A stretch of DNA of 64,000 bases from Actinomycetota bacterium (lineage in GTDB: Bacteria; Actinomycetota; Acidimicrobiia; Acidimicrobiales; Ilumatobacteraceae): positions 28,748-92,747 of the forward strand of contig SYAZ01000032.1 of NCBI GenBank assembly GCA_005788815.1, given 5' to 3'. Under the pieces are notes generated by a model that saw only the letters and a list, made by a program, of their open reading frames with translations, ran no database searches and was not told the DNA's origin. The stretch's first letter is position 1; the number at the start of each line of letters is the position of its first letter. This document shows, piece after piece, positions 1-46,590 of the stretch. A program made the position numbers and the translations under genes.

Positions 1-1
1 T

Positions 2-271
2 ACACCGCTTGCAGCAATGAAGTCATTTTTAGCTGACGGCTTAGCGCCACTTGCTCCGCGGTACTCATCCATAAAAATGCCGTTGTTGTTGTTCACATCA
101 GTGCAAGATCACGTGGTGCAACCAAGTGACAGCGATGCGTTAGCCGCTACCTACGGCGGCACTGTGGAACACGTGATGTTGGAACGCAGTTATCACGTTG
201 CGACGCAGGACTACGACAAAGACATTATTTTTGAAGGCTCTGTTGCCTTCGCGCGACGCGTCACTTCATGA
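2..271 (+). CDS. alpha/beta hydrolase (carboxylesterase-like), C-terminal fragment; 5' end outside the window
   Basis: Frame open from window start; LLLFTSVQDHVVQPSDSDALAATYGGTVEHVML..SYHVATQDYDKD fits the C-terminal Asp/His region of serine hydrolases. Confidence 0.75.
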   Translation, partial: TPLAAMKSFLADGLAPLAPRYSSIKMPLLLFTSVQDHVVQPSDSDALAATYGGTVEHVMLERSYHVATQDYDKDIIFEGSVAFARRVTS

Positions 272-1110
272 TGCTCTCCGCGATTCTCGCGTCAATTCCT
301 AGTCCATCGTCGGGTTCGCTACATCTTGGTCCACTGCGCCTGAACGCATACGGCTTAATGATCGCACTCGGTGTCATCGTTGCGATTCGAATTGCTGGTC
401 GTCGAGCTGAGTCTCAAGGTGTAGGAACTACAGACGACATTTCGTCAATTGCAATGTGGGCTGTGCCTGCTGGTGTTATCGGTGGGCGCGCGTACCACGT
501 CATCACTGACTACGAATTATTTCGCGGTCAGTGGATTGACGCCGTAAAAATCTGGGAAGGGGGCCTCGGCATTTGGGGTGGCGTCACACTCGGAGTGCTT
601 GTTGGTGCTTGGCGTGCTCGGGTGCGTGGCTTAAACGCCTGGGCAATTGTGTCGTGTGCGGTGCCAGCGATAGCGGTGGCACAATCAATTGGTCGCTGGG
701 GCAATTGGTGGAATCAAGAACTCTTTGGCAGGCCAACAACCTTGCCGTGGGGTCTCAACATTTCTGATTACCGCACTGTGAAGATCGGATACCCCGTCGA
801 CACCCTGTTTCACCCCACGTTCTTGTACGAGTCGCTCGGGTGTTTAGTTCTGGCATGGGGACTGATTGCTCTAGAAAAGCGCCTCAACCCTGCACCTGGT
901 CAAATCGTGGCTTGGTATGTGTTGGGTTACAGCGCTCTGCGGTTTGGCGTTGAGGGGCTTCGAATAGATCCTGCTCATTCGGCAGGTGGGTTGCGTCTCA
1001 ACCAGTGGGTTTCCATCGGGGCGTTCAGTGCGGCGGCTTTGTTTGTAGGAATTACTCGTCTGCGTTCTCGTGGCGACCGCGAAGCGTCTACGGTCATTGA
1101 ACATGAGTGA
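268..1110 (+). CDS. lgt: prolipoprotein diacylglyceryl transferase
   Basis: LGPLRLNAYGLMIALGV, GGRAYHVITD, SIGRWGNWWNQELFGRPTTLPWGL, HPTFLYESLGCLV motifs. Confidence 0.95.
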   Translation: MMLSAILASIPSPSSGSLHLGPLRLNAYGLMIALGVIVAIRIAGRRAESQGVGTTDDISSIAMWAVPAGVIGGRAYHVITDYELFRGQWIDAVKIWEGGLGIWGGVTLGVLVGAWRARVRGLNAWAIVSCAVPAIAVAQSIGRWGNWWNQELFGRPTTLPWGLNISDYRTVKIGYPVDTLFHPTFLYESLGCLVLAWGLIALEKRLNPAPGQIVAWYVLGYSALRFGVEGLRIDPAHSAGGLRLNQWVSIGAFSAAALFVGITRLRSRGDREASTVIEHE

Positions 1111-1906
1111 ATGTTTATATGAGGTGCGTGAGCCAGGTATTGGTCTCATTACTTTTAATCGTCCCGACCGTTTGAACGCTTGGACTGGCCGCATGGGCAA
1201 TGAGTACTTTGCTGCGATTGATGCTGCGGTTGCAGATCCAAACGTGCGGGTCATTGTTGTTACCGGCGCGGGGAAGGGTTATTGCGCAGGTGCCGACATG
1301 GGAACGTTGCAAGCAATTCCGTCTGGAGATTCTGCATCCTCAAAAGATGGAGCGAGCATCGTTGAAGGTCGTATGCAAGATGAAATCACGCGTATTACAA
1401 AGCCAGTGATTGCGGCAGTCAATGGCGCAGCTGCCGGACTCGGATTAGTACAAGCCTTGATGTGCGATATGCGCTTTGCTGCAGACACCGCCAAATTCAC
1501 GGTTGCATTTTCAAAGCGTGGACTCATCGGTGAATACGGCATCTCGTGGGTATTGCCACGACTAGTTGGTCAAGCGAATGCTCTCGACCTCATGATGTCG
1601 AGTCGCGTCGTTATGGCGAATGAGGCACAACAGATGGGCATGGTGAACAAAGTTGTTCCTGCAGATCAACTCATGGACGTCGTGCTTGCATATGCGGCCG
1701 ACCTCGCAATGAATGTGTCGCCGTCTTCCATGGCAGTCATGAAGAGACAGGTCTATTCCGACTACGAAAAAGATGTCTCTAGCGCCAGTAAAGAAGCACT
1801 TCGTTTGATGCAGGAATCCTTCACACGGTCAGATTTCAAAGAAGGCGTTCAGAGCTTCTTGCAAAAGCGTCAGGCAGAATTTCCGCCTGTTCATCCGAAC
1901 GCCTAA
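1103..1906 (+). CDS. enoyl-CoA hydratase/isomerase family protein (ORF track start 1070 is likely too early; ATG at 1103 overlaps the lgt stop)
   Basis: ITFNRPDRLNAWTG, GAGKGYCAGADMG, KPVIAAVNGAAAGLGL crotonase motifs. Confidence 0.92.
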   Translation: MSECLYEVREPGIGLITFNRPDRLNAWTGRMGNEYFAAIDAAVADPNVRVIVVTGAGKGYCAGADMGTLQAIPSGDSASSKDGASIVEGRMQDEITRITKPVIAAVNGAAAGLGLVQALMCDMRFAADTAKFTVAFSKRGLIGEYGISWVLPRLVGQANALDLMMSSRVVMANEAQQMGMVNKVVPADQLMDVVLAYAADLAMNVSPSSMAVMKRQVYSDYEKDVSSASKEALRLMQESFTRSDFKEGVQSFLQKRQAEFPPVHPNA

Positions 1907-1950
1907 ATCCGTTTGCGCCTTCTCGCTAGAGGGCTCGTAGGCTAGAAGCC

Positions 1951-2262
1951 GTGACTCAGTCAGGTAGCCCCATTTTCGCATCCGACGTGGCCAAAGTGGC
2001 TCGTTTGGCGCGTCTCGACATTGATGACGCCCAAGTTGCTCACTTCACCGAGCAGTTAGCCAAAGTCATGGGACATTTCAGCGACATCGATGCCTTAGAT
2101 CTTGATGGTGTTGGCCCCATGACGCAGCCGTATCCACTCGTCAACATCATGCGTGAAGATATAGAACTTCCATGTCTCGACACAGATGAAGTGTTGGCTG
2201 CTGCTCCCGCATCTGATGAGCGCCGTTTTCGTGTTCCACCGATTATTGGATTGGACGACTAA
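1951..2262 (+). CDS. gatC: Asp-tRNA(Asn)/Glu-tRNA(Gln) amidotransferase subunit C
   Basis: VAKVARLARLDIDDAQVAHFTEQL; directly upstream of gatA; GTG start. Confidence 0.92.
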   Translation: MTQSGSPIFASDVAKVARLARLDIDDAQVAHFTEQLAKVMGHFSDIDALDLDGVGPMTQPYPLVNIMREDIELPCLDTDEVLAAAPASDERRFRVPPIIGLDD

Positions 2263-2264
2263 CA

Positions 2265-3704
2265 GTGTCTGCTATTCCATCCACAGCATCTGAGATTGCA
2301 GCAGCAGTGATAGCGAAACGCATAACAGCGCGCGCAGTCATTGATGATTACCTTTCGCGCATCGACGCGCGTGAATCTGAGATTCATGCTTTCAACTTGG
2401 TGATGGCACAAGATGCGCGCGCGCAAGCAGATGCGATCGATGCAGATATTGTCGCTGGTCGCCCAGTGGGGCCACTTGCTGGTGTTCCCATTGCAATCAA
2501 AGACAACATGTGCACGCACGGCGTAGAGACAACATGCTCATCAAAAATTCTGGAGGGCTGGAAGCCGCCGTATGATGCAACAGTGATCACGCGTTTGCGC
2601 ACAGCTGGCGCTGTCATCATCGGCAAGACCAACATGGACGAATTTGCTATGGGTTCGAGTACTGAGAACTCTGCGTTCGGTTCCACTCGTAATCCGTGCG
2701 ATGTTTCGCGAGTGCCTGGTGGTTCAAGTGGCGGCAGTGCTGCCGCAGTTGCTGCTGGTTTTTCTCCCGTCAGTCTGGGTAGCGATACCGGTGGAAGTAT
2801 TCGCCAGCCTGCAGCAATGTGCGGTGTTGTCGGCGTGAAGCCAACATACGGAGTAGTCAGTCGTTATGGCCTCGTTGCGTATGCCAGTTCACTTGATCAG
2901 ATTGGTCCGTTTGCCACCACAGTTGCTGATGCTGCACTTCTTACCGAGGTCATTGGTGGACACGACCCCATGGATTCCACGTCTATTCCGCTCGCATCTC
3001 CATCGCTTTTGCCGTCCGTCAGCCAAGGTGTTTCCGGCATGCGTATTGGTCGCGTCACAGATCTTCCTGCTGGTGCAGAACCAGAAGTTGTAGCGCAACT
3101 CAACGAAGCATTTGCTGCATTAGAAGCAGCCGGAGCCACCATTGTCGACATCACGCTTCCGTCATTGTCATATGCATTGACTGCGTATTACCTCATTGCA
3201 CCAGCAGAGGCGAGTAGCAATCTTGCTCGTTTCGATGGTGTTCGATTTGGTCTACGCGTCAATGCAGCAGATACAAACTCAATGTACGGAGCAACGCGTG
3301 CTGCAGGCTTTGGTGATGAAGTCAAGCGACGCATCATGTTGGGAACCTACGCATTGTCTGCTGGTTACTACGACGCGTATTACGGAAAAGCATTGAAAGT
3401 GCGCCGGCTTATTGCACAAGATTTTGAACGCGCATACGAACAAGTAGATGCCATCTTGACCCCTACATCTCCGGTTGTGGCTTTCAAGTTTGGCGACAAA
3501 GTCGACGACCCAATGTCTATGTATCTATGCGACATCTACACAATTCCCACAAACTTGGCAGGCCACCCTGCAATGAGTGTTCCCTTTGGAACAGGCGCAC
3601 ATGGTTTACCAGTAGGTATTCAAGTGTTGGCACCAGCGCTTGGAGAACAAGCAATGTTCAGAGTTGGCGGAGCCCTTGAAGTTGCTGCAGGAGGCGCACA
3701 ATGA
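2265..3704 (+). CDS. gatA: Asp-tRNA(Asn)/Glu-tRNA(Gln) amidotransferase subunit A
   Basis: Amidase signature VPGGSSGGSAAAVAAGFSPVSLGSDTGGSIRQPAAMCGVVGVKPTYG. Confidence 0.97.
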   Translation: MSAIPSTASEIAAAVIAKRITARAVIDDYLSRIDARESEIHAFNLVMAQDARAQADAIDADIVAGRPVGPLAGVPIAIKDNMCTHGVETTCSSKILEGWKPPYDATVITRLRTAGAVIIGKTNMDEFAMGSSTENSAFGSTRNPCDVSRVPGGSSGGSAAAVAAGFSPVSLGSDTGGSIRQPAAMCGVVGVKPTYGVVSRYGLVAYASSLDQIGPFATTVADAALLTEVIGGHDPMDSTSIPLASPSLLPSVSQGVSGMRIGRVTDLPAGAEPEVVAQLNEAFAALEAAGATIVDITLPSLSYALTAYYLIAPAEASSNLARFDGVRFGLRVNAADTNSMYGATRAAGFGDEVKRRIMLGTYALSAGYYDAYYGKALKVRRLIAQDFERAYEQVDAILTPTSPVVAFKFGDKVDDPMSMYLCDIYTIPTNLAGHPAMSVPFGTGAHGLPVGIQVLAPALGEQAMFRVGGALEVAAGGAQ

Positions 3705-5173
3705 GCGATAGTCCTCTTAGTTCCATAGTTGCAACCGAAGATCAAATGCTTGAGGGTGGTTGGGAACTCATTGTTGGTTTAGAAGTGCATGTCGAATTGG
3801 CGACGCGCACAAAACTATTCAGTGGTTCACCAAACAGATTTGGCGACGAGCCAAACGTCAACATTGACCCCGTCACGTTGGGCTTGCCTGGTGCGTTACC
3901 AGTGTTGAATAGGCAAGCAGTCGAACTTGCCATGCGTATCGGTGTTGCGTTGAACTGCAGAATTCAGCCGTGCATCTTTCACCGTAAGAACTATTTCTAC
4001 CCAGACATGCCAAAGGCGTATCAAATTAGTCAGTACGACATTCCATTGAATGTCGACGGCTTTCTTGAGTTGCCGAGTGGAACCACCATTGGTGTTGAAC
4101 GCGCGCATCTTGAAGAAGACACTGGCAAGAGCACTCATGTTGGCGGTGCAACTGGCCGTATTCACGGAAGTGATTATTCGCTCATTGACTTCAACCGCGC
4201 CGGCGTGCCACTTGTAGAAATCGTGTCGCGTCCAGATATTCGCACTAGCGAGCACGCACGTGAATACGTGTCAGAGCTCCGAGCAATTTTGGAAGTCATT
4301 GGCGCATCTGACGCAAAGATGGAAGAAGGCTCCATGCGTGTCGATGCAAACGTGTCAGTGCACAAGCCTGGAACCCCTTTTGGCACACGTTGCGAGATTA
4401 AGAACGTGAACTCCATTCGTGCTCTTGGTCGCGCTATTGATTACGAAGCACGTCGCCAAATTGATGTTCTCGATACTGGTGGTGTCATTCGCCAAGAGAC
4501 CCGACACTGGGACGATGCCGAAGGCCGTACGCATACGTTGCGTGTAAAAGAAGACGCCGACGATTACAGATATTTCCCTGAGCCAGACCTAGTGCCAGTG
4601 GCACCAGATGACGCATGGGTACAAGCAGTGCGCGACAATTTGCCGATGCTTCCGGCTGCACGTCGTTCGGCATTGTCTGCATTGACCGGTTACGACACTC
4701 GGTCTGAAGCAATCATCGTTGTTGTTGAGCGTGCCCAACATGATTACGTGCAAGCAGTAGCAGATGCTGGTGGCGATGCAGTGCGTGCACTCATTTATGT
4801 GCAACAAGCATTTGCTGACGCTGGCCCAACACCGGCCGTGCCTGCAAAAGATTTAGCCGCTCTCACCATTCTTGAGCGCGACGGCAAACTGTCTGCAACG
4901 CAAGCCAAGACCGTGTTGTCTGAACTAGTGGAAAACGGTGGAGGCGACGCTGCTGCCATTGCCGCTGCTAAAGGTTTTGAAGCAATGGACAACTCGGCAG
5001 TGGAAGCAATGGTGGATGAAGCCATTGCCGCTGACCCTGATGCGTGGTCTAAATACTGCGCCGGCGAAGAAAAGGCTGCAGGAGCAATCGTTGGCCGTGT
5101 GATGAAAGCCAGTAAAGGCAAGGCAGATGGCAAGGTTGTCAGTGCCATTATGCAATCACGCCGCGGTTCGTAA
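3701..5173 (+). CDS. gatB: Asp-tRNA(Asn)/Glu-tRNA(Gln) amidotransferase subunit B
   Basis: WELIVGLEVHVELATRTKLFSGSPN, HRKNYFYPDMPKAYQISQYDIPL, EDTGKSTH. Confidence 0.97.
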   Translation: MSDSPLSSIVATEDQMLEGGWELIVGLEVHVELATRTKLFSGSPNRFGDEPNVNIDPVTLGLPGALPVLNRQAVELAMRIGVALNCRIQPCIFHRKNYFYPDMPKAYQISQYDIPLNVDGFLELPSGTTIGVERAHLEEDTGKSTHVGGATGRIHGSDYSLIDFNRAGVPLVEIVSRPDIRTSEHAREYVSELRAILEVIGASDAKMEEGSMRVDANVSVHKPGTPFGTRCEIKNVNSIRALGRAIDYEARRQIDVLDTGGVIRQETRHWDDAEGRTHTLRVKEDADDYRYFPEPDLVPVAPDDAWVQAVRDNLPMLPAARRSALSALTGYDTRSEAIIVVVERAQHDYVQAVADAGGDAVRALIYVQQAFADAGPTPAVPAKDLAALTILERDGKLSATQAKTVLSELVENGGGDAAAIAAAKGFEAMDNSAVEAMVDEAIAADPDAWSKYCAGEEKAAGAIVGRVMKASKGKADGKVVSAIMQSRRGS

Positions 5174-5203
5174 CTAACGAAGCATTCGGCGTACTGTTCG
5201 CCT

Positions 5204-6460
5204 ATGGATTTTGAAATTCCCGCAGACGTTCAGACAACCCTCGACGCTCTTGATGCTTTCATTGAAAAAGAGATCAAGCCGCTACAGGCTCAAGATGACA
5301 ACGAAAGATTCTTTGATCATCGCCGTGAATGGGCGCGTACAGATTTTGAAAACGATGGTGTTCCCCGTGCGGATTGGGAAGCGTTGTTGCGCGAGATGCG
5401 TCGCAGGGCAGACGCAGCCGGCTGGTTACGGCTTGCACTTCCACAAGAGTTCGGTGGCCAGAGTGCTAGCAACTTGAAGATGGCGATCATCCGTGAGCAT
5501 TTGGCAACAAAAGGTCTGGGCTTGCATAACGATTTGCAAAACGAATCAAGCATTGTGGGCAACTTTCCCACTGTGCTCATGATGCGCGATTTTGGAACAG
5601 AAGAACAAAAGAAAGAATGGATGCCTGGGTTCCTTGATGGCACCAAACGGCTTGCATTTGGTCTCACCGAGCCCAATCACGGAAGTGATGCCACGTATCT
5701 AGAGACCACCGCCTACAAAGATGGCGACGAATGGGTCATCAATGGAATGAAGCGTTGGAACAGTGGTCTGCATCACGCCACCCACGACATCATTTTTGCG
5801 CGCACAAGTGGAACACCGGGAGATCCGAAAGGAATCAGTGCGTTCTTAGTCCCTACCGATGCGCCTGGTTTTAAAGTGGAGTTCTTCTGGTGGACATTCA
5901 ACATGCCAACAGACCATGCTGAAGTAAGCATCACTGATGTACGAGTAGGACCCGAAGCATTGTTTGGTCCCGCAGAAATGGGACTCGAACTAGCTCAACA
6001 TTTCGTGCATGAAAACCGAATTCGCCAAGCAGCATCTTCACTAGGTGCAGCGCAATTCTGCATTAACGAAGCTGTGCGATATTCGAATGAGCGAATTACG
6101 TGGGGTAAAAAACTCAGTGTGAATCAAGGTATTCAATTTCCACTTGTTGAACTTCACACAGAGGCTGCAATGTTGCGTCAACTGATTCGTTACACAGCAA
6201 CCATGCTCGACCAAAAGCACCATATGGAAGTCACGCACCTCGTGGCCATGTGCAATTACCGTGCGAACCGTTTGGCCTGTGATGCCGCTGACCGTGCAAT
6301 GCAGACCTGCGGAGGGGTTGGCTACAGCCGCCATATGCCTTTTGAACACATTTATCGGCACCATCGCCGGTATCGCATCACGGAAGGCTCTGAAGAGATT
6401 CAGATGCGTAAGGTGGCCAGCAATCTGTTTGGTTTTGGGTCTTCGAAAGAACGTCGCTAA
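5204..6460 (+). CDS. acyl-CoA dehydrogenase family protein
   Basis: FGLTEPNHGSDATYLETTA, MQTCGGVGYSRHMPFEHIYRHHRRYRITEGSEEIQ. Confidence 0.93.
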   Translation: MDFEIPADVQTTLDALDAFIEKEIKPLQAQDDNERFFDHRREWARTDFENDGVPRADWEALLREMRRRADAAGWLRLALPQEFGGQSASNLKMAIIREHLATKGLGLHNDLQNESSIVGNFPTVLMMRDFGTEEQKKEWMPGFLDGTKRLAFGLTEPNHGSDATYLETTAYKDGDEWVINGMKRWNSGLHHATHDIIFARTSGTPGDPKGISAFLVPTDAPGFKVEFFWWTFNMPTDHAEVSITDVRVGPEALFGPAEMGLELAQHFVHENRIRQAASSLGAAQFCINEAVRYSNERITWGKKLSVNQGIQFPLVELHTEAAMLRQLIRYTATMLDQKHHMEVTHLVAMCNYRANRLACDAADRAMQTCGGVGYSRHMPFEHIYRHHRRYRITEGSEEIQMRKVASNLFGFGSSKERR

Positions 6461-6466
6461 ACGTAA

Positions 6467-7522
6467 TCAGACTGGAAACGACAACACTTGGCTGTTCACC
6501 AGCACACCTACGAAACTGCCTACCTTAGGTAGTAATCGTGAATGTAAACGCGCAGTAATCACGAGGCCGTCTTCGAAGCGCACATCAACAGTGCCATCAT
6601 GACCGAAATATCGGGTCACGAGTACTTCACCAGTCACAACTGCATGTGGATTGTCGGTCTTCACAAGTTCAAATTGTTCGGGGCGAATAATTACGGTTGT
6701 CGGACCAGGGGATTGGGGCCGTAGAAGTTCAATAGATCCGAATCGTGTTGCCACTGATGTGCCGTTCGCTTCGACGGTGCCAGAGAAAGAAACTGCCTCA
6801 CCAATGAAGCCGGCGACTTCGGTTGTTTCAGGGTTGCGATAGGCACTGACGGGGTCGGAGAATTGAGCAATGCGTCCTTTCATAAGAACAGCGACTGCAT
6901 CGGCAACGGAAAGAGCCTCGTCTTGATCATGGGTGACCCACAATGCCGTAGCACCAGCGGTGCGCAAAATATTGACCACTTGCTCACGCAATGTTTCGCG
7001 AAGTCCAGCGTCAAGGGCGGAAAATGGTTCGTCGAGAAGTACCAGGGCTGGCTGAGTGGCAAGGGCGCGTGCAAGTGCAATGCGTTGTTGCATGCCGCCC
7101 GACAATTCAGAAGGACGTTGATCAGCCGAGTCGGGGAGACCAACAAGTTCGAGCATCTCCTTGACGCGGGCACGTGCTTCAGGTGAGCGTCGTTTCTTCA
7201 GACCGAACGCAATGTTTTCACTCACGCTGAGGTGAGGAAAGAGAGCTCCTTCTTGGACGACTATTGAAATACCTCGCTCGTGTGGCGGCACCCATATGTG
7301 TGGATCTGCCACAACGACTCCGTTGATGGAGATAGTTCCATGAGTTGGCCGTTCGAAACCAGCGACGATGCGCAGAAGAGTGGTCTTTCCTCCTCCGGAT
7401 GGTCCAAGTAGTGCAGTGATGCTTCCGTGCTGAATTTCAAGGTTCACTGAGTCGAGCACTTGGTGATCCCCAAAGAAATGGGACACGTTGTTGAGTTGAA
7501 GTGCGCTTGAACTGCTCATCAT
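6467..7522 (-). CDS. fbpC: ferric iron ABC transporter ATP-binding protein (FbpC-like)
   Basis: Walker A GPSGGGKTTLL, LSGGMQQRIALARAL, TOBE-like C-terminus; operon with FbpA/FbpB-like genes. Confidence 0.85.
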   Translation of the reverse strand: MMSSSSALQLNNVSHFFGDHQVLDSVNLEIQHGSITALLGPSGGGKTTLLRIVAGFERPTHGTISINGVVVADPHIWVPPHERGISIVVQEGALFPHLSVSENIAFGLKKRRSPEARARVKEMLELVGLPDSADQRPSELSGGMQQRIALARALATQPALVLLDEPFSALDAGLRETLREQVVNILRTAGATALWVTHDQDEALSVADAVAVLMKGRIAQFSDPVSAYRNPETTEVAGFIGEAVSFSGTVEANGTSVATRFGSIELLRPQSPGPTTVIIRPEQFELVKTDNPHAVVTGEVLVTRYFGHDGTVDVRFEDGLVITARLHSRLLPKVGSFVGVLVNSQVLSFPV

Positions 7523-35335: not shown

Positions 35336-35806
35336 CTAGCGCTTCTTCTTCGCTGCCTTCTTAACGACTTTCTTCTTTGCTGGTGCAGCCTTCTTCTTTG
35401 CAGGAGCGGCTTTCTTCTTTGCTGGTGCAGCCTTCTTCTTTGCAGGAGCAGCTTTCTTCTTTGCAGGAGCAGCCTTCTTGACTGGTGCAGGAGATGGCTT
35501 GCGAACAGTTGCAATCTTCGGTGCTGGAGCGACGCCAAGAGCAATGTCCTTGAAGCCCTTCAGTGCGGTGATTTTTGCAACTGTCTTTGCCTTGATCTTG
35601 ATCGTTTCGCCAGTGGCTGGGTTACGACCCATGCGTGCTGGACGCTTGATCTTTGCGAACTTTGCAAAGCCGGAGAGATTTACAATCTCACCTTTTGCAA
35701 CGGTCGCGAGGATCACGTCAATAGTTCCTTCAACCAATCGGGCTGCTGTCTTGTTATCGACATCAGCGTGAATGGCTACTGCTTGAATGAGTTCACGTTT
35801 CTTCAT
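35336..35806 (-). CDS. hupB: HU-family DNA-binding protein with Lys/Ala/Pro-rich C-terminal tail (HupB-like)
   Basis: MKKRELIQAVAIHADVDNKTAARLVEGTIDVI...GRNPATGETIKIKAKTV; tail (KKAAPAK)n. Confidence 0.92.
   Translation of the reverse strand: MKKRELIQAVAIHADVDNKTAARLVEGTIDVILATVAKGEIVNLSGFAKFAKIKRPARMGRNPATGETIKIKAKTVAKITALKGFKDIALGVAPAPKIATVRKPSPAPVKKAAPAKKKAAPAKKKAAPAKKKAAPAKKKAAPAKKKVVKKAAKKKR
35376..35480. repeat. 21-bp tandem repeat, 5 units, encoding AAPAKKK in the HU tail
   Basis: TTTGC[A/T]GG[A/T]GC[A/G]GC[C/T]TTCTT[C/G] units in the + strand; last unit degenerate. Confidence 0.85.
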
Positions 35807-36115
35807 GTCTCCGAAGTTATTCCATGCCAGTGCCAAAAAGGTGGATATCCATTGACTTTTTTGTCACTAGGAAAAAGTGACAATTTGAACCTGGTGAAAG
35901 TAACAAGCACATGTCATGGCGAAGGAATGTAGAAGGATTCCGACCTGACGATTTATAGACCGATTGGCAGTCGGCGGCACGGCAAAAATCGACGCACCAG
36001 GTCCGTGGCCCGCTCGCAGCCCGAGGGGTGGTTTTCAAGCAAAAATGCCGTGGAAACCCTTTGTCTGGGCGTTTCCGACCCATAATTGGACAAAATATGC
36101 AATAAAGTGAACTCG

Positions 36116-39100
36116 ATGTGGTTCAAGCAGCGATTTATTGCCGTAGTGGTAACGGTGGCGTTCGTGGTAGCTGCTTGTTCCGGGGGCAGTTCAACACCAG
36201 TTGACCCGAACGCACCCGATATTCGCAATGTGTCGTTGACCTCTGCTGCGAGTGGAATCAATCCGGCTCTTGACGGCTTCTCTTTCCCAAACTTTGCTGC
36301 ATCAGCAGTAAACGAAGAATTCAATACCGACGACATGGTGACGATGTTTGGCAACGGTCCCGATGTTTGCGTCAAAGGTGCAATGCCCTGTGAATTGACT
36401 GCTGAGGCATCTGGCTGGGCTCGCATGGTGAATCAAGCACGATCCTCTGGCCATTGTGAAGGTTTGGCCGTTTTGTCTCAGGAACGATTTAACGAAAAAG
36501 CGATTCCCAAGACATTTTCTTTGAACAACACGGATGATGTATCTCATGCAATTATGAGGGCGTTCTCCACTCAATTTTTAAATGAGGTGCAAAGCGCCAC
36601 CAAGTCATACGCCAAAATGTCTATGCGTGAGATTGTGACGACGTTGGCAGAAACCCTAAAGAAGGGAACTTCCCAATACACATTGGGTGTTTATACGCAA
36701 AGCGGTGGTCATGCCATCTTGCCCTATGCAGTTGAGATGCAGTCAAAAGACAAAGCCATCGTCAAGGCCTACGACTCAAACTGGCCGGGCCAAGATCGAT
36801 TCGTTGCATTTGATTTAGAGAAAGACACGTGGGAGTTTTCATTCTCAGGACGAGATCCAAACAATGACCCGAATCTTTGGCAAGGCGGAAAGGGTGATGT
36901 CGATCTTTCTCCCATTCAGGCTCGCACACAGGGAACATGCCCGTTCTGTGGAGATAAAAACGCGGTTGGTAAATCAACATTGTTGATTCGTTCGTCAGCG
37001 CCCGACTGGTCAATTGAGTCAAATGATGGCCAGTTGAACCCAGGGTCGTATGTTCAAGGCAACAGTGTGGTGCGGCCGCTCCGTTCTGGTCGATTCAACG
37101 CAGAGTCAGGTAAAGATGCAGCGCCCACTGATTATTTGGTATCAACAGACTTTGGTGGCGGCAATGTCAAACTTCGTCTGAAATCGGCTGCACAGATTGT
37201 TGGAGTTACTCCCACTTCTACATTTGAAGTGTCATCGCCAAGCAACATGACTTTGGAAAGTACTCCAGTTATTCTCGCGAACTCATCGATTCAAGTCGAT
37301 AACCCCAAGGTTACGTTGACTCTTGCACAAGAAAACTTTGCTGCGTCTTCAACAGGTTCAGAGAACATTCTGTCTACATCGAGTAAGGGAATCACGGTTC
37401 AGTTGGCTGCTGCAGACGGTAGTCAGATCGAGTTTTCAACCACAAAAGAAGTACCTGCATTTGCTATTCGAACTGGTGAAGCACTTGGACAGTCCACCAC
37501 CACAAAGTATGAGGTCACTACACAAATCACTGAAAAGCAAATTGAAACAACCGTGGTGAAGATTGACGGTGCAAAGGTTGTGAAAACTGAAGTGGGAGTT
37601 CTGGATAACCAAAAGATCAGTATTGAATTGCCGCCAGAACTCGTAGCGCCCCCAACAAAAGGAGAATTGCCTGCGGTTGTTGAGCGAGACCTCTCCATTG
37701 TTGAACTAGTCGCACCTCCTCCTGATCCGCCGTCGGAATCAACGGTCATGACGCTTGCTGTTGTAAACCCTCAAGAGCCATTGGCAACGATGAATGATCC
37801 ACAACCTGGTCGACCTATTTCCGTGCAGTATTCAGGTTTCCGCCCGGGTGAGTGGGTGCAATTGATTGTTGCATCCACGCCACGTGTGTTGTCTACGGTC
37901 AAAGCAGACGAAAGTGGAACAGTACGAATTAGTGCTGCATTACCCACCGATCTGGATGAAGGTGATCATCACTTGGTCATCTACCGACCAGCGCTCAAGA
38001 TGGGTATCAGACAACCATTTCGCTATCAAAGACCTCTCGTAACGACCACGACTTCGACAACGACAACAACTGTTCCGAAAACTACGACGACTACTTCCAC
38101 AACCACAACAACTATTCCAAAGACCACCACAACAACGTCTACAACGACAACCACCACAACAACGACAACCACCGCAACAACGTCTACAACGACGACAACT
38201 ATTGCGCCAGTTATTGTCTCTTTGAATCCAGTGCGCAACCTGCGTGCCACACCTATCTCGAATGGGAGTGTTCAATTAGATTGGGACGCACCAATGTCGT
38301 CGAATACTCAAGTCGACAAGTACATGATCAATTATTACGACCTGAATCAGATTGGTGGAACAGCATCTGGTGGATGGGGGATCTATGTCTCGGGTAACAC
38401 GACCACGTACACCTTCGAACCTCATATGTTCGAAGGTGGTAATGAGGTAACAACTGGTTTTGGACCCGTTCGTTTCGAGGTGTATCCAGCAGATGCAAAC
38501 TGGGTGTATGGCCCGCGAGTAGATGTAGATGCAACTGTTTCTGCACCGACCACCACAACAACATCGACTACAACAACAACGCTCCCACCACAGGTGCCAC
38601 CTAGCGCGCCACTTTCATTGTCTTCAACTAAAGGCACGAACGCAGTGTCGCTCACATGGAATGTGCCGACTACACCCGGCAGCGCAGCAATCTCTGACTA
38701 CGTGGTTTCGTATTCGCAATCAGCGGCTGGTTCTTACACCGTGTTTAACGATGGTGTATCTACTAACACCACGGCCACCGTTACCGGGCTCACTAATGGG
38801 TCGTCGTATTATTTCAAGGTTGCGGCTGTGAGCTCTGCAGGTACTGGCGCTTTGACCTCTGCAACGCCAGCCGTTGCTCCTGCGCAACCATGTTCAAGTG
38901 TATGTGCCGTCGGAGATATTGGCCCTGGTGGTGGAATCATCTTTATTACGCCTGCAACAAGTGGTAATTCAAGCGGCCAGTATTTTGAAGCCGCACCGAA
39001 TAATTGGAATGGCGGCGGAGACCCGAATGTGGCTTGGTGTAACGGCGCGTCCACTTCTATTTCGGGTTCCACCGGAACGTCCATTGGTTCGGGAAAGTCA

Positions 39101-41329
39101 AATACTGCAGCCGTTGCCTCAACCTGTGTCTCTGGTGCGTCAGACACTGCAATTGCATATAACGGTGGCGGATTCTCTGACTGGTACTTGCCATCAATAG
39201 ATGAACTACTGCAGATGTACACACAGCGTGTGGCCATTGGTGGTTTTAAAGCTGGCGCCCAGTTGTCAACAGGAATTTCGACGACTACCTATTGGAGTTC
39301 AACACAGAACTCTGCAACACAGGCTCGTAACTGGTCATTTGCTGATAACAGCAATGACAACTGGACCAAGTCTTTAGGATTCAATGTGCGCCCAGTTCGT
39401 TCGTTCAGTGCGCCATCCCAACCATTATCCGTAAGTGCAAGTTCTGGTGATGCCGAAGCTGAACTTTCATGGAGTGCTCCGAGTTCAAGCAATGGATCAT
39501 CAATTACGGATTACGTCATCAAGTACGCCACAACAAGTGGCGGCCCGTACACAACCTTTAATGACGGAGTAACTACTTCGCGTACAACCACTGTCACTGG
39601 GTTATCAAACGGAGTTCCGTATTACTTCACAGTGTCAGCGGTGAACGCTGCAGGCACAGGTCCGGAGAGTGTGGAAACTGCCGCGGTCACACCGTTGGCT
39701 CCGGCGCCAGTCATTTCATCGATTACGGGCAGCAACGGCCAAATTGATGTCACATGGGGTGCGGTAAATCATGGCGGCGATAATTATCAGATTTGGTGGG
39801 GTACCGATCCAACATGGGAATCTAGTTACACCTACACAGGTACGACGAACACCACGTACAACATTGCTGGCTTAGTAAATGGCACTACGTATTATGTACG
39901 AGTTGCTGGTTGGAATAACTCGTTGTCGCCACAAGTTGGAACAACTCCGTGGAGTAGTAACGCTTCTGCAGTTGCAGGAGGCGTTGCCCCACTAGCGCCT
40001 GCATCGATCAGTGCTGAAAGCGTATTTCTTGGGGCGAACTTGGTAGTCAATCCGGGCGCAGAGTCAGGCACAGATGGTTGGTCTTACACAGGCGATTGGT
40101 ATGTGGGTCCTGGTTGGAAAACGCCACACTCAGGCACACAGTCAGTGTCCACGTCATACAGCCTCGCTACAAGAACTCAGACTGTCAGTCTCTCCTCTGA
40201 GACGACTACATACTTAGACACGTCTCCAGATATTGAAGTAAGCACCTGGTTCCATGGACTTTGTGGAACGCGGTTCTTCATGCGGGCTGAGTTGTTAGAT
40301 GGCAGCGCCAATGTTCTTGCGACACAAAACTTTGGTTCTGAGAATGCGTTAATGGCAAACATTGACCTTGTGTGGAACAAACGGACTTTACGGTTTAGTG
40401 GGTACCCGTCGGGTGTGCGTTCAGTTCGTTATACCGACGGCGGCATGGACGGCTGTTTCTGGGCCGGCTATTACGGCGCTGCAATGGATGACACCAGTGT
40501 CAAAGTTCGCCAGCCATCAGTCTCGGGTATTGCCCAGGTGAATCTTTCATGGGCGGCTGCGGGCCTCAACGGTGGTTCAGCCATTACGGACTACATCGTG
40601 GAGTACGCAACATCAAGCGGTGGTTCATTCAGTGTGTATAACGATGGAGTACACACCGGCACTTCGGCATCAATTAATGGTCTGACAGGAGGAAACACTT
40701 ATTTCTTCCGTGTGAAGGCTGTGAGTTCAGGTGGAACATCTAGCGCATCAAGTGAGTCCTACGGCGTGTATGTTCCAGTCGCTTCTTGCGCCAACGGAGG
40801 TCCATGCTCGATAGGGGATGTTGGTCCTGGCGGTGGGACTGTTTTCAGTGTTCAAAGTTCACCAATCAATGCGTACTCGGGAGTCTCAACAGGTGGCATT
40901 TATCTTGAGTATGGTCAAGAAAGTTCCGGTGCTTTTGGATGTCGCGGAGGGTCATCTGCGGGGTATGGATTGAATATCGGTACGGGAGCTGAGAACACCG
41001 GGGTGTTCGCCTCAATATGTGCGGACAGTAACGCGACAACTGTGTTGAATTTGGTGGAAGGTGGGAAGTCCGATTGGTTCTTGCCTTCGCTACTTGAATT
41101 AAACGAGTTATGCAAGTTTGCCCGAAATCAATGGTCGGCCATTGGAACAGCCGCGACGTGCGATTCAAGTGGGTCGTTGCGCAGCGGTTTCACTGATGGC
41201 TTTTATTGGAGTTCTTCGTCGGCTAGCTCACTAAGTGCTTACACCCGAAGTTTTTCTAATGGCACAGTCGCCAATCCACAAAAGTGGGATTCCCACCTGT
41301 ACCGACCTATCCGCGCTTTTGGTAACTGA
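36116..41329 (+). CDS. giant multidomain surface lipoprotein: N-terminal papain-like (Cys/His/Asn) domain candidate, Thr-rich linkers, about five Fn3-like domains, two DUF1566/Lcl-like modules, one FBA-like domain
   Basis: Lipobox VVAACSGG from ATG 36116; GHCEGLAVL/GGHAILPYAV/YDSNWPG; (T)n linkers; repeated SWSAPSSSNGSSITDYVIKYATTSGGPYTTFNDG; VGDIGPGGG...YWSSTQ..NVRPVRSF twice; NLVVNPGAESGTDGW.. Confidence 0.85.
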   Translation: MWFKQRFIAVVVTVAFVVAACSGGSSTPVDPNAPDIRNVSLTSAASGINPALDGFSFPNFAASAVNEEFNTDDMVTMFGNGPDVCVKGAMPCELTAEASGWARMVNQARSSGHCEGLAVLSQERFNEKAIPKTFSLNNTDDVSHAIMRAFSTQFLNEVQSATKSYAKMSMREIVTTLAETLKKGTSQYTLGVYTQSGGHAILPYAVEMQSKDKAIVKAYDSNWPGQDRFVAFDLEKDTWEFSFSGRDPNNDPNLWQGGKGDVDLSPIQARTQGTCPFCGDKNAVGKSTLLIRSSAPDWSIESNDGQLNPGSYVQGNSVVRPLRSGRFNAESGKDAAPTDYLVSTDFGGGNVKLRLKSAAQIVGVTPTSTFEVSSPSNMTLESTPVILANSSIQVDNPKVTLTLAQENFAASSTGSENILSTSSKGITVQLAAADGSQIEFSTTKEVPAFAIRTGEALGQSTTTKYEVTTQITEKQIETTVVKIDGAKVVKTEVGVLDNQKISIELPPELVAPPTKGELPAVVERDLSIVELVAPPPDPPSESTVMTLAVVNPQEPLATMNDPQPGRPISVQYSGFRPGEWVQLIVASTPRVLSTVKADESGTVRISAALPTDLDEGDHHLVIYRPALKMGIRQPFRYQRPLVTTTTSTTTTTVPKTTTTTSTTTTTIPKTTTTTSTTTTTTTTTTTATTSTTTTTIAPVIVSLNPVRNLRATPISNGSVQLDWDAPMSSNTQVDKYMINYYDLNQIGGTASGGWGIYVSGNTTTYTFEPHMFEGGNEVTTGFGPVRFEVYPADANWVYGPRVDVDATVSAPTTTTTSTTTTTLPPQVPPSAPLSLSSTKGTNAVSLTWNVPTTPGSAAISDYVVSYSQSAAGSYTVFNDGVSTNTTATVTGLTNGSSYYFKVAAVSSAGTGALTSATPAVAPAQPCSSVCAVGDIGPGGGIIFITPATSGNSSGQYFEAAPNNWNGGGDPNVAWCNGASTSISGSTGTSIGSGKSNTAAVASTCVSGASDTAIAYNGGGFSDWYLPSIDELLQMYTQRVAIGGFKAGAQLSTGISTTTYWSSTQNSATQARNWSFADNSNDNWTKSLGFNVRPVRSFSAPSQPLSVSASSGDAEAELSWSAPSSSNGSSITDYVIKYATTSGGPYTTFNDGVTTSRTTTVTGLSNGVPYYFTVSAVNAAGTGPESVETAAVTPLAPAPVISSITGSNGQIDVTWGAVNHGGDNYQIWWGTDPTWESSYTYTGTTNTTYNIAGLVNGTTYYVRVAGWNNSLSPQVGTTPWSSNASAVAGGVAPLAPASISAESVFLGANLVVNPGAESGTDGWSYTGDWYVGPGWKTPHSGTQSVSTSYSLATRTQTVSLSSETTTYLDTSPDIEVSTWFHGLCGTRFFMRAELLDGSANVLATQNFGSENALMANIDLVWNKRTLRFSGYPSGVRSVRYTDGGMDGCFWAGYYGAAMDDTSVKVRQPSVSGIAQVNLSWAAAGLNGGSAITDYIVEYATSSGGSFSVYNDGVHTGTSASINGLTGGNTYFFRVKAVSSGGTSSASSESYGVYVPVASCANGGPCSIGDVGPGGGTVFSVQSSPINAYSGVSTGGIYLEYGQESSGAFGCRGGSSAGYGLNIGTGAENTGVFASICADSNATTVLNLVEGGKSDWFLPSLLELNELCKFARNQWSAIGTAATCDSSGSLRSGFTDGFYWSSSSASSLSAYTRSFSNGTVANPQKWDSHLYRPIRAFGN
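38041..38206. repeat. low-complexity Thr-codon repeat (protein linker)
   Basis: ACN-rich tract encoding TTTTSTTTTTVPKTTTTTSTTTTTIPKTTTTTSTTTTTTTTTTTATTSTTTTTIA; a second short tract near 38549-38584. Confidence 0.9.
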
Positions 41330-41353: not shown

Positions 41354-41989
41354 TTATTTTTGATGTTCTGGTGACAAAACTGCTTCTAGAGCAATCAACG
41401 ATGTCTCAACCCACTGCGCGCCAATGTCGGTCGTTTCATTTCCGAGGTCGAGCAAGATGCGACCGAAAAACTGACCTTGAATCCAGTATGAAACTGCCAA
41501 TGTGTCAATGTCTTTTCGAACGACACCGTTCTTTTGTGCGATGACCAGGCTTTCGGCGTAATACCGTGATTCAGTTCGTTGTGCTTCAACGATTGCCTCT
41601 TGTACTTTTTTGTTATGAAGTGCTGCGGTCATTAGCCGAGTACGAGAACGTCGAACATCTACGCCACGATCTGGACTGTCTGCTCGCATAAACAAGGTCA
41701 CGATGTCGAACAATTCTTTGAAGGAGGTGCATTGTTCAAACATTTTTCGTTGCACGACGTTTTCTGCATGCATGGAACTTCGGATGATTTCTATTTCCGC
41801 AGCGGCAATGAGGCCGGCTTTGTTATCGAAGTGGTGATACAACGAACTGCGTGCCACGCCTGTTTGAGTCAGAACAGAATCCATGTCGAACCCAGATTCA
41901 CCATTAGTTTCCAGCTCGGAGATGGCGGCGTCCATGAGTGTCTGCATCGTGGCTAGGCCATCGAGACGCTTCTTTTTCGGTGGGGTCAT
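41354..41989 (-). CDS. TetR family transcriptional regulator
   Basis: LMDAAISELETNGESGFDMDSVLTQTGVARSSLYHHFDNKAGLIAAAEIEI. Confidence 0.92.
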   Translation of the reverse strand: MTPPKKKRLDGLATMQTLMDAAISELETNGESGFDMDSVLTQTGVARSSLYHHFDNKAGLIAAAEIEIIRSSMHAENVVQRKMFEQCTSFKELFDIVTLFMRADSPDRGVDVRRSRTRLMTAALHNKKVQEAIVEAQRTESRYYAESLVIAQKNGVVRKDIDTLAVSYWIQGQFFGRILLDLGNETTDIGAQWVETSLIALEAVLSPEHQK

Positions 41990-42165: not shown

Positions 42166-43377
42166 ATGAAACAAAAGACCAAATTACTCGCTGCTTTCGC
42201 GGTGACTAGCGCACTGATCTTCGCATCATGCTCTAACTCCGACGAGTCTGGTAGCCGTACCAAGAATGAAGCATTAACCCCAGAATCATCTGACGGTGGA
42301 TTCGGACCAAACCTTGTAGTTAATCCGAGCAACGAAAACAATCGGGACGGTTGGGCCTACTCAGGTAGTTGGTATGTCGGAAAGGGTTCCGGTTACGGCG
42401 GTGACTGGCAAAGGCCCCGCAGCGGAACAAACATCGCCTCCACCTCCTTCAGACTTGGTACACGTAATCAAGTCATCAGCCTCTCTTCAGAGTCAGACGA
42501 GTATCTCGATACATCACCGGAGATTACGGTGAGCACCTGGTTCAACGGTCGCTGTGGCGGTCGTTTCTTCATGCGCGCGCAACTGCTCGATGGGTCGGGC
42601 GTTGTTATCGATACCAAGAACGTAGGGTCCGAGAACTCATTGCAGAATGTTCACATTTCTGACTGGACAGATCAGTCATGGGTTCAACACTCAGTGTCCT
42701 TCACTGGGTACCCAGCAGGTGTTCGTTCAGTGCTTTACACAGACGGTGGAAGAGATGGATGCTGGTGGGCCGGGTTCTACGGTGGACAAATGGATGACAC
42801 CGAAGTACGTGTCAAAGCAAATGTTGCCACCACATCGGTAGCGCCTGAAATTCCAGCGGAAGTTACAACAACGACAGTTGCAGATAGCACTCCAATCGAA
42901 ATTACATCGCTACCTGAAATTGCTGTTGATCCAACTGCAACCGATTACTCATGCACATCTGAGTGCGTGAAGGGAATCGCAGCTGCAGCTGGACTTCCAG
43001 ATGGTGTTGTATCAGTCAGTGTTGACGGTGGAGCACCAGTTGTTCTCACAGGTGAAAACGCAGTTGCCTTGGCATCAGGTTCTTCCAAGTTGACTTTCTC
43101 GGTTGCCGCAAATGGCACCACAAAAGAAATCACTTCAGGTGTGAAGCGTTCAGCAGGTGCAAAGCAGACAGATCTACCGACTGCAACGAGTGACACTACT
43201 GTTGCTCCTGCTGAGGAATCAGATACCACTATTGCTGCGGTAACTGAGACCGAGACAGAAACTGAGACTTCAGATGACAGCAGTGGATCCTCACCGATTC
43301 TCTGGATCATCATTGCGTTGATCGTGATCGCAGTTATTGCGTTCCTCGTTCGTCGCAGTCAGGCTTCTAAGGCCTAA
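42166..43377 (+). CDS. lipoprotein with FBA-like domain (~42304-42825), Thr-rich region and C-terminal TM anchor
   Basis: Lipobox LIFASCSN; NLVVNPSNENNRDGWAYSGSWYVG...EYLDTSPEITVSTWFNGRCGGRFFMRAQLLDGS...GVRSVLYTDGGRDGCWWAGFYGGQMDDTEVRV; TM SPILWIIIALIVIAVIAFLVRR. Confidence 0.85.
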   Translation: MKQKTKLLAAFAVTSALIFASCSNSDESGSRTKNEALTPESSDGGFGPNLVVNPSNENNRDGWAYSGSWYVGKGSGYGGDWQRPRSGTNIASTSFRLGTRNQVISLSSESDEYLDTSPEITVSTWFNGRCGGRFFMRAQLLDGSGVVIDTKNVGSENSLQNVHISDWTDQSWVQHSVSFTGYPAGVRSVLYTDGGRDGCWWAGFYGGQMDDTEVRVKANVATTSVAPEIPAEVTTTTVADSTPIEITSLPEIAVDPTATDYSCTSECVKGIAAAAGLPDGVVSVSVDGGAPVVLTGENAVALASGSSKLTFSVAANGTTKEITSGVKRSAGAKQTDLPTATSDTTVAPAEESDTTIAAVTETETETETSDDSSGSSPILWIIIALIVIAVIAFLVRRSQASKA

Positions 43378-43449: not shown

Positions 43450-44073
43450 TTATGACACAAGTGCGAGCGATGAAGATGACAAGAAATCTGCTTCTGAATG
43501 ATCGTGTGTGACGAGGACTGATGTCACTGAAGAGGACTGCAGGATTGACTTCACCTGATGCATTAATGCATCGCGTGTTTCATCGTCTAGCCCTGTAAAG
43601 GGCTCGTCGAGTAACAAAATGCTTGGCGATGGAGCAAGGGCTCTAGCAATGGCAATTCGTCGTGATTCGCCTCCAGAAAGGCTATGAATGTCTCGATGAG
43701 CAAAGTCGGAAAGGCCAACTAGCTCCAGCATTTCTTCCACGCGGTCCGATGTTTCTCTCGGTGAGGTACCCCGCAAGCGCAATCCGAATGCAATGTTCTG
43801 TGAAACCGTGAGATGCGGGAACAAATCGTTCGACTGCGTCACCATACCGATACCGCGCTTATGGGTGGGTAACTGCGTGATGTCACGATCATCAATAAAA
43901 ATTGCTCCCTCAGCAATTCGCACGAGGCCGCATATCGCCTGCAACACAGTGCTCTTTCCAACTCCCGATGGTCCTGTGATGGCCAATGTGGTGGCGGTGG
44001 GTACTTCAAATGACAGGTCAGAGATGATTGGCGCGCCTGCATAGGACACGGAGAGTTTTGAAACTTTAAGCAC
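43450..44073 (-). CDS. thiQ: thiamine ABC transporter ATP-binding protein (ThiQ-like)
   Basis: GPSGVGKSTVLQAICG, LSGGESRRIAIARALAPSPSILLLDEPFTGLD; TPP-riboswitch operon. Confidence 0.82.
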   Translation of the reverse strand: MLKVSKLSVSYAGAPIISDLSFEVPTATTLAITGPSGVGKSTVLQAICGLVRIAEGAIFIDDRDITQLPTHKRGIGMVTQSNDLFPHLTVSQNIAFGLRLRGTSPRETSDRVEEMLELVGLSDFAHRDIHSLSGGESRRIAIARALAPSPSILLLDEPFTGLDDETRDALMHQVKSILQSSSVTSVLVTHDHSEADFLSSSSLALVS

Positions 44074-45634
44074 GACTTGTTACCCCCATGGTGAGCACAA
44101 TAAGGAGTGAAGCCAATACGTACCCCGACTGTTGGGTTAGTGCACCGGGGCGGCCGAGCAATTGTGAAATCGCCATAGTCAAAGTGGTGGAATTGGATCG
44201 CGTCAGAAATGAAGTAACCCCAAATTCGCCTAATGAGATTGCAGCCGAGATACCAACACTGCGCAGCAGTGCAGGACGAAGAAGCGCAATGTCTATACGC
44301 AACCAAGTGTGCCATGGTGATGCACCCAATAGTGCTGCTCCTACGCGAAGTGATGGTGGGATTGCCTGCACTGCTGGTTCCAGTATGCGAATGGCAACGG
44401 GAAGAGCAATAAGGGCATGAACAACTGGAATGAGCCATGTGTGACTCCGCCATGCAAACGGATCTGTGTTGTATGTGATGACAATCCCAAGACCGAGAGT
44501 CGCTGCGGAAACAACGAGAGGTAACGAGGTAACAAAGCGAAGTATGCGATGTTGCTCTGCATAGTGAAACCATTGGCGCCCCATTTGTTGTGCAGCAATA
44601 AGTGCAAGAGCCACGGCCAAGATGGCTGTTGCAAGTGAGAACAGGAGTGATGTGACGATCACTCTCCACGTAGAGACAGTGAGTTGGGGCAATGTTCCAC
44701 CGAGCACCGAGCTCCACGCATGAAATGAAAGACGACCTCGATACGAAATGGAACGTATCAATGTGGCAACAAGAGGAAGAGCCACAACAATGACCGGGAC
44801 AACAACCGAGACCAGAACAATCCAGCGACCGCGGGGTTTCGTATGCAGCGGTATTGGTGCCGAACTCACATGTGTGGAAGTTGTCTGCAGCGGTGATGGC
44901 CGTGAGATTTGGAAGACCAACAACACCACAACCATTTGAAGAACAGCAAGAGTGATAGCAACATCGGTGTTTCCTAATCGAACCGACTGCGTGAATATCT
45001 CTGTCTCAATGGTTCGTCGCGAAAAGCCGCCAACGATTGAAATGACTCCGAAGGATGTGAAGCAATATGTGAACACAAGTGCAGCAGCAGAGTTAACGGC
45101 ACTGCGTATGTTGGGCCACATAATGTGGGCAAAGGTTTGCCATGGTGACGCACCTAATGTTGCGGCGGATTCTTCGTATCTGGGGTTCAAGAGGGCCCAA
45201 CGAGGACTCACTATCCGTAAAACAACTGCCACATTAAACACAACATGCGCCCAGAGGATTGAAATAACGCCTGTGCGTTGAGATATCGCAAGTACGCCGG
45301 CCGCCACAACAATGGAAGGCAATACAAATGGTGTTGTCAGTAGTCCACGACATAAGCGTGCGCCAGGAAATTGAAAACGTGAGAGTGCCCAGGTGGCAGG
45401 TATGGCAAAAATCATCGTGGCAAGAACAGATAACACCGCTTGCCACAGGGAGAACCAAAGAATGCGAAGTATTGAAGGGTCTGAAAGCACGTCTCGACTG
45501 GTGCTCACGCTAAAGAATGTGGCAACAGTGTTGAGAAATGGCAGAACAAGAAAGACGGCAACGAATCCCACGGGAAGAAACGAAAGCAGTCGTCGAGTGG
45601 TCATAGCAGTATTGCTCTCCACTCGTTCAGCCAC
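44066..45634 (-). CDS. thiP: thiamine ABC transporter permease (ThiP-like, fused modules)
   Basis: Multi-TM, two EAA-like loops (EESAATLGASPWQTFAHIMWPNIRSAV; LRVGAALLGASPWHTWLRIDIALLRPALLRS). Confidence 0.82.
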   Translation of the reverse strand: MAERVESNTAMTTRRLLSFLPVGFVAVFLVLPFLNTVATFFSVSTSRDVLSDPSILRILWFSLWQAVLSVLATMIFAIPATWALSRFQFPGARLCRGLLTTPFVLPSIVVAAGVLAISQRTGVISILWAHVVFNVAVVLRIVSPRWALLNPRYEESAATLGASPWQTFAHIMWPNIRSAVNSAAALVFTYCFTSFGVISIVGGFSRRTIETEIFTQSVRLGNTDVAITLAVLQMVVVLLVFQISRPSPLQTTSTHVSSAPIPLHTKPRGRWIVLVSVVVPVIVVALPLVATLIRSISYRGRLSFHAWSSVLGGTLPQLTVSTWRVIVTSLLFSLATAILAVALALIAAQQMGRQWFHYAEQHRILRFVTSLPLVVSAATLGLGIVITYNTDPFAWRSHTWLIPVVHALIALPVAIRILEPAVQAIPPSLRVGAALLGASPWHTWLRIDIALLRPALLRSVGISAAISLGEFGVTSFLTRSNSTTLTMAISQLLGRPGALTQQSGYVLASLLIVLTMGVTSRA

Positions 45635-46590
45635 TTCTCACGATTGCCTTCTATGTCTTGCGGGCTGACAGTAAGTGGGTTCTTTGCTCGCACGGCAAAC
45701 TTCACAAATAAATCTGGCAACACAGCTTCCTTGTTCACTGGAAAGACAAACAGTGAGAGCGGCATTGACTCTTGGAATCTTTTGCCCAAGAGGTACTTCA
45801 CCAATGTTTCTGCAGCAGGGGAGTTTGCACTTCCTCGCATCACGCCCACGTATTCGGTTTGTCGGAAACATGTTGACTCAATTACAGACGTAGTGGGTTC
45901 AGTTATGGGGTTAGACGGATCTGCATACAGCACTTCGGCGGGTGGGCTTGAGCCGTAGCTAACTACAAGTGGGTATTTGCCATTGCCTGAACTTCCAGAG
46001 AAATCAACGGTGTATGCAGTTGTCCAGTCGGGTGCGATGTGCACATGGCCCTTCAACGCTTCCCAGAATGTTTGCCACTTACCCTCGCCGAAGTGAGCGA
46101 TTGTTCCGAGCAAGAATCCAAGACCAGGGGATGAAGCAACTGGATCTTGTGTAACTAACAAACCTCGATACTGAGGAAGCACTAAGTCTTCTAGGCGAGT
46201 AGGTATCGGGACATCGCTATTTGCAAACCACTCTTTGTCGGCGTTGATACAGATATCGCCGGTGTTGACTGGTTCGTAACTTGTAAGCAGAGATGCTTGT
46301 TCAGCTCTCGACAACATGGTGTTATCCACGCCCCACAGCACGTCACCTTCAGGATTTCCGGCAGTGAGAATTGCTTTGGAAACGAGGACTCCGGAATCAC
46401 CACCTGTGATGACTTTGACCGTGATACCAGTGTCATTCGTGAATTCGTCAAAAATTCCTTCTTCAGGTGTGAATGCGTCGTACGCCAAGAGGGTGACAGT
46501 TGCTGGCTTCTTCTCGACATTCTCTGATGTGGAAGAAGTGCATGCTGCAAGTGATGCCACAGCGACAGTGAATACAAATAGTCGTTTCAT
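45601..46590 (-). CDS. thiB: thiamine ABC transporter substrate-binding lipoprotein (ThiB/TbpA-like)
   Basis: Lipobox LAACTSS; LLAYDAFTPEEGIFDEFTNDTGITVKVITGGDSGVLVSKAILTAGNPEGDVLWGVDNTMLSRA. Confidence 0.87.
   Translation of the reverse strand: MKRLFVFTVAVASLAACTSSTSENVEKKPATVTLLAYDAFTPEEGIFDEFTNDTGITVKVITGGDSGVLVSKAILTAGNPEGDVLWGVDNTMLSRAEQASLLTSYEPVNTGDICINADKEWFANSDVPIPTRLEDLVLPQYRGLLVTQDPVASSPGLGFLLGTIAHFGEGKWQTFWEALKGHVHIAPDWTTAYTVDFSGSSGNGKYPLVVSYGSSPPAEVLYADPSNPITEPTTSVIESTCFRQTEYVGVMRGSANSPAAETLVKYLLGKRFQESMPLSLFVFPVNKEAVLPDLFVKFAVRAKNPLTVSPQDIEGNREKWLNEWRAILL

Follow-up and report, generated by a model that had tools for sequence, protein, structure and literature searches.

The locus and its lipoprotein genes

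Two neighbouring, co-oriented genes for lipoproteins, each with an FBA domain (Pfam PF04300), lie in the 64,000-nucleotide stretch of DNA that was analysed (the window). The features of the locus are as follows.

36086..41329, + strand: gene 1, a modular lipoprotein of 1747 codons from the listed TTG; the ATG at 36116 is the likelier start
36206..37045, + strand: N-terminal domain of gene 1, which starts behind the lipobox Cys31 and ends near residue 320
39134..39400, + strand: first Lcl_C domain (PF07603) of gene 1, by Pfam
40034..40513, + strand: FBA domain 1 (PF04300), residues 1317–1476 of gene 1, by Pfam, PDB search and model
41354..41989, − strand: TetR-family regulator between the two FBA genes, its position conserved in the related loci L007 and L008
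42148..43377, + strand: gene 2, a lipoprotein (lipobox FASC, Cys28) with an FBA domain, a Thr-rich linker, a C-terminal transmembrane helix and a basic tail
42307..42819, + strand: FBA domain 2 (PF04300), residues 54–224 of gene 2

The lipobox of gene 1, VVAAC with mature Cys31, and the transmembrane helix of gene 2 were read from the sequence. Behind the N-terminal domain of gene 1 come Thr-rich linkers, fn3 modules, Lcl_C, FBA, fn3 and Lcl_C; by Pfam, the fn3 modules make up five stretches and Lcl_C two domains. The initial annotation had placed an FBA domain in a surface lipoprotein beside fn3 modules, and the lipobox and the fn3 modules bear out that setting; it did not include the FBA domain of gene 2.

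The N-terminal domain of gene 1 has no Pfam match and no PDB match. Its family is multi-copy, is matched in 31 of the 32 genomes of the genus and is marked by the motifs GHCEG, GGHA and YDxNWP. Cys124, His209, Asp230 and Asn232 are invariant in the 16 aligned members, and the Cys/His/Asp order, the sole basis for this reading, suggests that the domain is probably a papain-like enzyme. Since the paralogues carry other C-terminal parts (in open frames of up to 2819 amino acids, in G018:C21), FBA appears to be an exchangeable module within this family.

The trio of FBA 1, TetR and FBA 2 is syntenic in two further MAGs of the genus (L007 and L008), with the same ABC transporter genes alongside. 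In the tree, the FBA 1 and FBA 2 groups each hold one copy per genome from three genomes, and the duplication that gave rise to them is therefore older than these species. Both domains are under strong purifying selection, with dN/dS of 0.05–0.20. An assembly artefact or eukaryotic contamination might be feared, given that the source MAG is fragmented (112 contigs) and 68% complete. However, three MAGs of the genus have the same trio and its ABC neighbours, two of which correspond to public records under different names, and the open reading frames are uninterrupted and carry bacterial lipoprotein signals. We regard the chance of an artefact as negligible, and contamination was rejected.

The orthologues differ in their additional modules. 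The L008 orthologue of gene 1 (a 1323-aa ORF, 1–3969) contains an inserted SUEL lectin domain (9e-10), and that of gene 2 (a 596-aa ORF, 4774–6561) an inserted PA14 domain (1e-8). These additions imply that binding modules have been gained or lost between close relatives.

As to the surroundings, the conserved ABC transporter genes beside the FBA pair (43450–46590, minus strand) encode an ATPase, a permease and a binding protein, and resemble those of an importer for iron or thiamine. At 35336–35836 a gene encodes an HU-like DNA-binding protein whose C-terminal tail consists of AAPAKKK repeats.

Family membership and predicted fold

The segment that had been likened to the FBA domain of FBXO2/FBXO6 (40031–40515) has a translation identical to the one then quoted, and the domain bounds were refined to 40034–40513. 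Pfam assigns it to a single family, FBA PF04300, with an E-value of 6e-19 and 68.9 bits, well over the curated cut-off of 32.4 bits, and the match covers profile positions 9–175 of 175. In the PDB, phmmer found FBXO44 (4.8e-16), FBXO2 (6.8e-15) and FBXO6 (3.5e-13); beyond the structures of these three proteins (4.8e-16 to 2.2e-10), the sequence search gave none below 0.1. It follows from the Pfam score and from PDB sequence matches to Fbs proteins alone that the segment is a true FBA family member by homology, and chance resemblance was rejected. FBA domain 2, which shares 61% identity with FBA domain 1, likewise scores over the cut-off of 32.4 bits (E-value 6.9e-18, 65.5 bits), its match too taking in almost all of the profile. 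Neither protein is an F-box protein: Pfam gives no F-box match in either, and both have, as read from the sequence, an N-terminal lipoprotein signal with a lipobox, which speaks against a cytosolic location.

We also considered that the domain might be a carbohydrate-binding module (CBM) of another family, sharing with FBA only the fold and the NLxxNPGAE...GW start. Modules with this start motif do exist (L013, L014 and L015), and carbohydrate-binding modules have this fold too. Yet the genomes of L013 and L014 give no PF04300 match, while the domain in the window matches the FBA profile in its entirety, the GGxD..(F/W)WxGxYG block included. This explanation, to which we give next to no credence, is refuted by the PF04300 profile score; L013, L014 and L015, which share the start motif of CBM-like modules alone, were not counted as FBA.

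The AlphaFold models reach a mean pLDDT of 66.4 (FBA 1) and 64.1 (FBA 2), and their first and last parts are weak. They were built with seven sequences, the myxobacterial ones being left out, and this small usable set accounts for the middling confidence. In Foldseek searches of the PDB, the ten best matches of each model are all structures of Fbs1, Fbs2 or FBG3, with E-values down to 3.3e-8 and 1.4e-7; the next matches, with much weaker E-values, are carbohydrate-binding modules and phage depolymerases. Both domains are thus modelled as the Fbs-type, galactose-binding-like β-sandwich. With middling pLDDT and weak ends, the models are to be read for fold, as their pocket geometry is unreadable.

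Binding-site residues and proposed role

The residues of FBA domain 1 that correspond to the binding site of Fbs1 are the following.

40157..40159, + strand: Tyr1358, at the position of Fbs1 Phe177 (alignment)
40262..40264, + strand: Cys1393, equivalent to Fbs1 217, in the β5–β6 loop
40454–40456, + strand: Cys1457, equivalent to Fbs1 278, the predicted disulfide partner of Cys1393
40457..40462, + strand: Phe1458-Trp1459, at the positions of Fbs1 Tyr279-Trp280 (alignment)

Stacking on GlcNAc-GlcNAc by Phe177, Tyr279 and Trp280 is indispensable in Fbs1, where the β5–β6 loop is also pivotal (PMC4603797). The aromatic triad of FBA 1 is Tyr/Phe/Trp, identical to that of FBXO6; the Phe-Trp pair emphasised in the initial annotation is kept, and the alignment places the same pair in FBXO6. 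FBA 2 has Phe/Trp/Trp. A tyrosine at the Fbs1 177 site suits binding: the double change F173Y and E174R made human Fbs1 bind complex glycans more tightly, and F173Y, at the human counterpart of mouse position 177, was selected in higher-affinity Fbs1 variants (PMC5457524). By alignment, the cage aromatics are present in all six actinobacterial domains. Of 20 bacterial domains, 17, 16 and 18 have an aromatic residue at the three cage positions, and the losses are confined to repeats of myxobacterial tandem arrays. The equivalent of Fbs1 Lys281 is alanine, as in FBXO6; the six actinobacterial domains all have a gap at the Asp216 position (alignment), and their β5–β6 loop is two residues shorter than in Fbs1.

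Among the characterised proteins, FBXO6/Fbs2 (PDB 8zuh, a bovine structure solved with Man3GlcNAc2) shares with FBA 1 homology over the full FBA length (3.5e-13), the fold, and the Tyr/Phe/Trp cage followed by Ala-Gly. Unlike FBXO6, the protein described here is an exported lipoprotein with no F-box/Skp1 partner, and it has two pocket-loop cysteines and lacks the Asp of the β5–β6 loop. FBXO2/Fbs1 (PDB 1umh, 2rj2) resembles it in fold and sequence (PDB E-values of about 1e-11 to 2e-10), but has a Phe/Tyr/Trp cage, Lys281 and Asp216, and is a cytosolic ubiquitin-ligase receptor. FBG3/FBXO44 (PDB 3wso) is the best sequence match (4.8e-16) and also has a cysteine in the β5–β6 loop.

FBXO44 calls for caution: it keeps the binding residues, yet does not bind sugar, owing to its different loops (PMC4603797). 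Thus, conserved residues alone are no proof of sugar binding. FBA could have kept its fold while binding protein rather than glycan, as a structural spacer or a protein–protein module, as is thought for FBXO44, and the altered β5–β6 loop with its missing Asp216 would agree with this. On the other hand, the cage is aromatic in all six actinobacterial and most other bacterial domains, the modules added in the orthologues (SUEL, PA14) are of lectin type, and A217C alone caused no loss of Fbs1 binding (PMC4603797). We therefore consider the protein-binding alternative unlikely, if worth keeping in mind.

In all six actinobacterial domains there are exactly two cysteines, which occupy the Fbs1 217 and 278 positions. 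The side chains at these positions are adjacent in Fbs1, where a modelled Cys217 clashes with Val278 (PMC4603797). It is probable, from the sequences, that a disulfide joins the two pocket loops, β5–β6 and β9–β10. Twelve of twelve myxobacterial domains also have exactly two cysteines, one at the 217 position and the other in the β7–β8 region; L044, a more distant thirteenth domain, has a third kind of pair, and the Flavobacteriales domain has no cysteine. Different clades thus seem to have locked their pocket loops by different predicted disulfides, which would fit an extracellular domain.

The reading we favour, and hold to be likely as a whole, is that FBA is an extracellular glycan-binding module on a modular surface lipoprotein, with a role in attachment. 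Homology, fold, cage residues, export signals, synteny and purifying selection are the observations on which it builds. FBA would stand outside the cell as one module of the long lipoprotein, with the second copy alone on the small neighbouring lipoprotein. Its β-sandwich would display the Tyr/Phe/Trp cage on the β3–β4 and β9–β10 loops, and the disulfide between β5–β6 and β9–β10 that we infer for the actinobacterial domains would probably hold the cage in shape. The cage would stack on a glycan, most likely a β-linked GlcNAc core or a comparable polysaccharide unit, which algae, detritus or neighbouring cells might supply. In this manner FBA would anchor at the glycan surface either the cell or the enzyme-like N-terminal domain of gene 1. 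Such glycan binding by an adhesin, which had been proposed as the function, is a plausible candidate.

The proposed role is like that of a CBM. CBM22, CBM16, CBM27 and CBM4 likewise have a galactose-binding-like fold and a presumed role on a modular secreted protein, although none has a significant sequence match to FBA here. The setting is also of this type, namely an exported multidomain protein with fn3 and Lcl_C, with SUEL and PA14 in the orthologues and NAGPA in a myxobacterial relative.

Distribution and origin of bacterial FBA

FBA domains were found in three of 32 genomes of the genus. They are absent from all 296 other sampled Actinomycetota, and the samples of the family and of the phylum held no FBA beyond the genome of the window itself. 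Clear FBA domains, scoring as high as 113 bits, occur in five of 195 sampled Myxococcota genomes, often as tandem runs of two or three. A scan of the species collection also found FBA with a type IX secretion tail in a protein of a marine Flavobacteriales MAG; among 396 Bacteroidota, the starting genome alone was over the FBA cut-off. Matches in G584, G833 and G836 were sub-threshold or fragmentary and were left out of the counts. Viral contigs, phage records and plasmids yielded no FBA relative, and there is thus no sign of spread by such elements.

The myxobacterial proteins (L039–L043) resemble those of the window: they have no F-box, mostly carry export signals, mostly keep the cage aromatics and have two cysteines per domain. 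They differ in that four of them (L039, L040, L042 and L043) have two or three FBA domains in tandem, in that the second cysteine lies in the β7–β8 region, and in the attached domains. Thus, the array of L042 adjoins a phosphodiester glycosidase NAGPA (9.6e-16), and L040 has a metallopeptidase-like domain, the match of which is sub-threshold. The last FBA repeats of L039, L042 and L043 have degenerate pocket residues. As far as signal sequences tell, most bacterial FBA proteins appear to be exported.

The domain had been labelled eukaryotic-type and said to bear on the origin of the eukaryotic domain. The label is misleading on origin, as exported FBA is found also in Myxococcota and Flavobacteriales; the bearing on origin is real, and the tree, which nests neither bacterial nor eukaryotic copies in the other, does not settle it. 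The actinobacterial domains and the three vertebrate domains that stand for eukaryotes (FBXO2, FBXO6 and FBXO44 only) each form one clade (100/100), neither inside the other. Placing actinobacteria and eukaryotes together was not rejected (p 0.495), nor was vertebrates with Myxococcota (p 0.146).

A recent transfer from a eukaryote into these actinobacteria would account for the patchy occurrence, in three of 32 genomes of the genus and nowhere else in the sampled Actinomycetota. However, the actinobacterial clade sits on a long branch outside the vertebrate clade, its mean identity to eukaryotes (33%) is no higher than that to Myxococcota (34%) or Flavobacteriales (36%), and the G+C (51.8 and 52.8%) matches that of the window (51.2%). 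A recent transfer is thus improbable. An ancient one, in either direction, is compatible with the tree, given the p of 0.495 for the joint clade with three vertebrate rows only. More tentatively, and as a possibility that we would not press, an exported bacterial FBA binding GlcNAc-rich or N-glycan-core-like sugars could be the older form, from which the eukaryotic Fbs domain descended, the bacterial branches then locking this one pocket by differing disulfides.

The papers that we found describe FBA as a quality-control lectin of the eukaryotic cytosol, and our search of the open-licence literature found none on bacterial members; Pfam or InterPro may already list such members without comment. 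With extracellular relatives in bacteria that keep this aromatic cage, the origin of the domain becomes testable. The animal FBA has exported bacterial cousins, which probably aid the cell in holding glycans, and the FBA lipoproteins offer small lake actinobacteria a concrete candidate means of attaching to glycan-rich particles or cells. Engineered Fbs1 is already in use for N-glycan capture (PMC5457524), and bacterial FBA domains are possibly comparable scaffolds, stabilised by disulfides.
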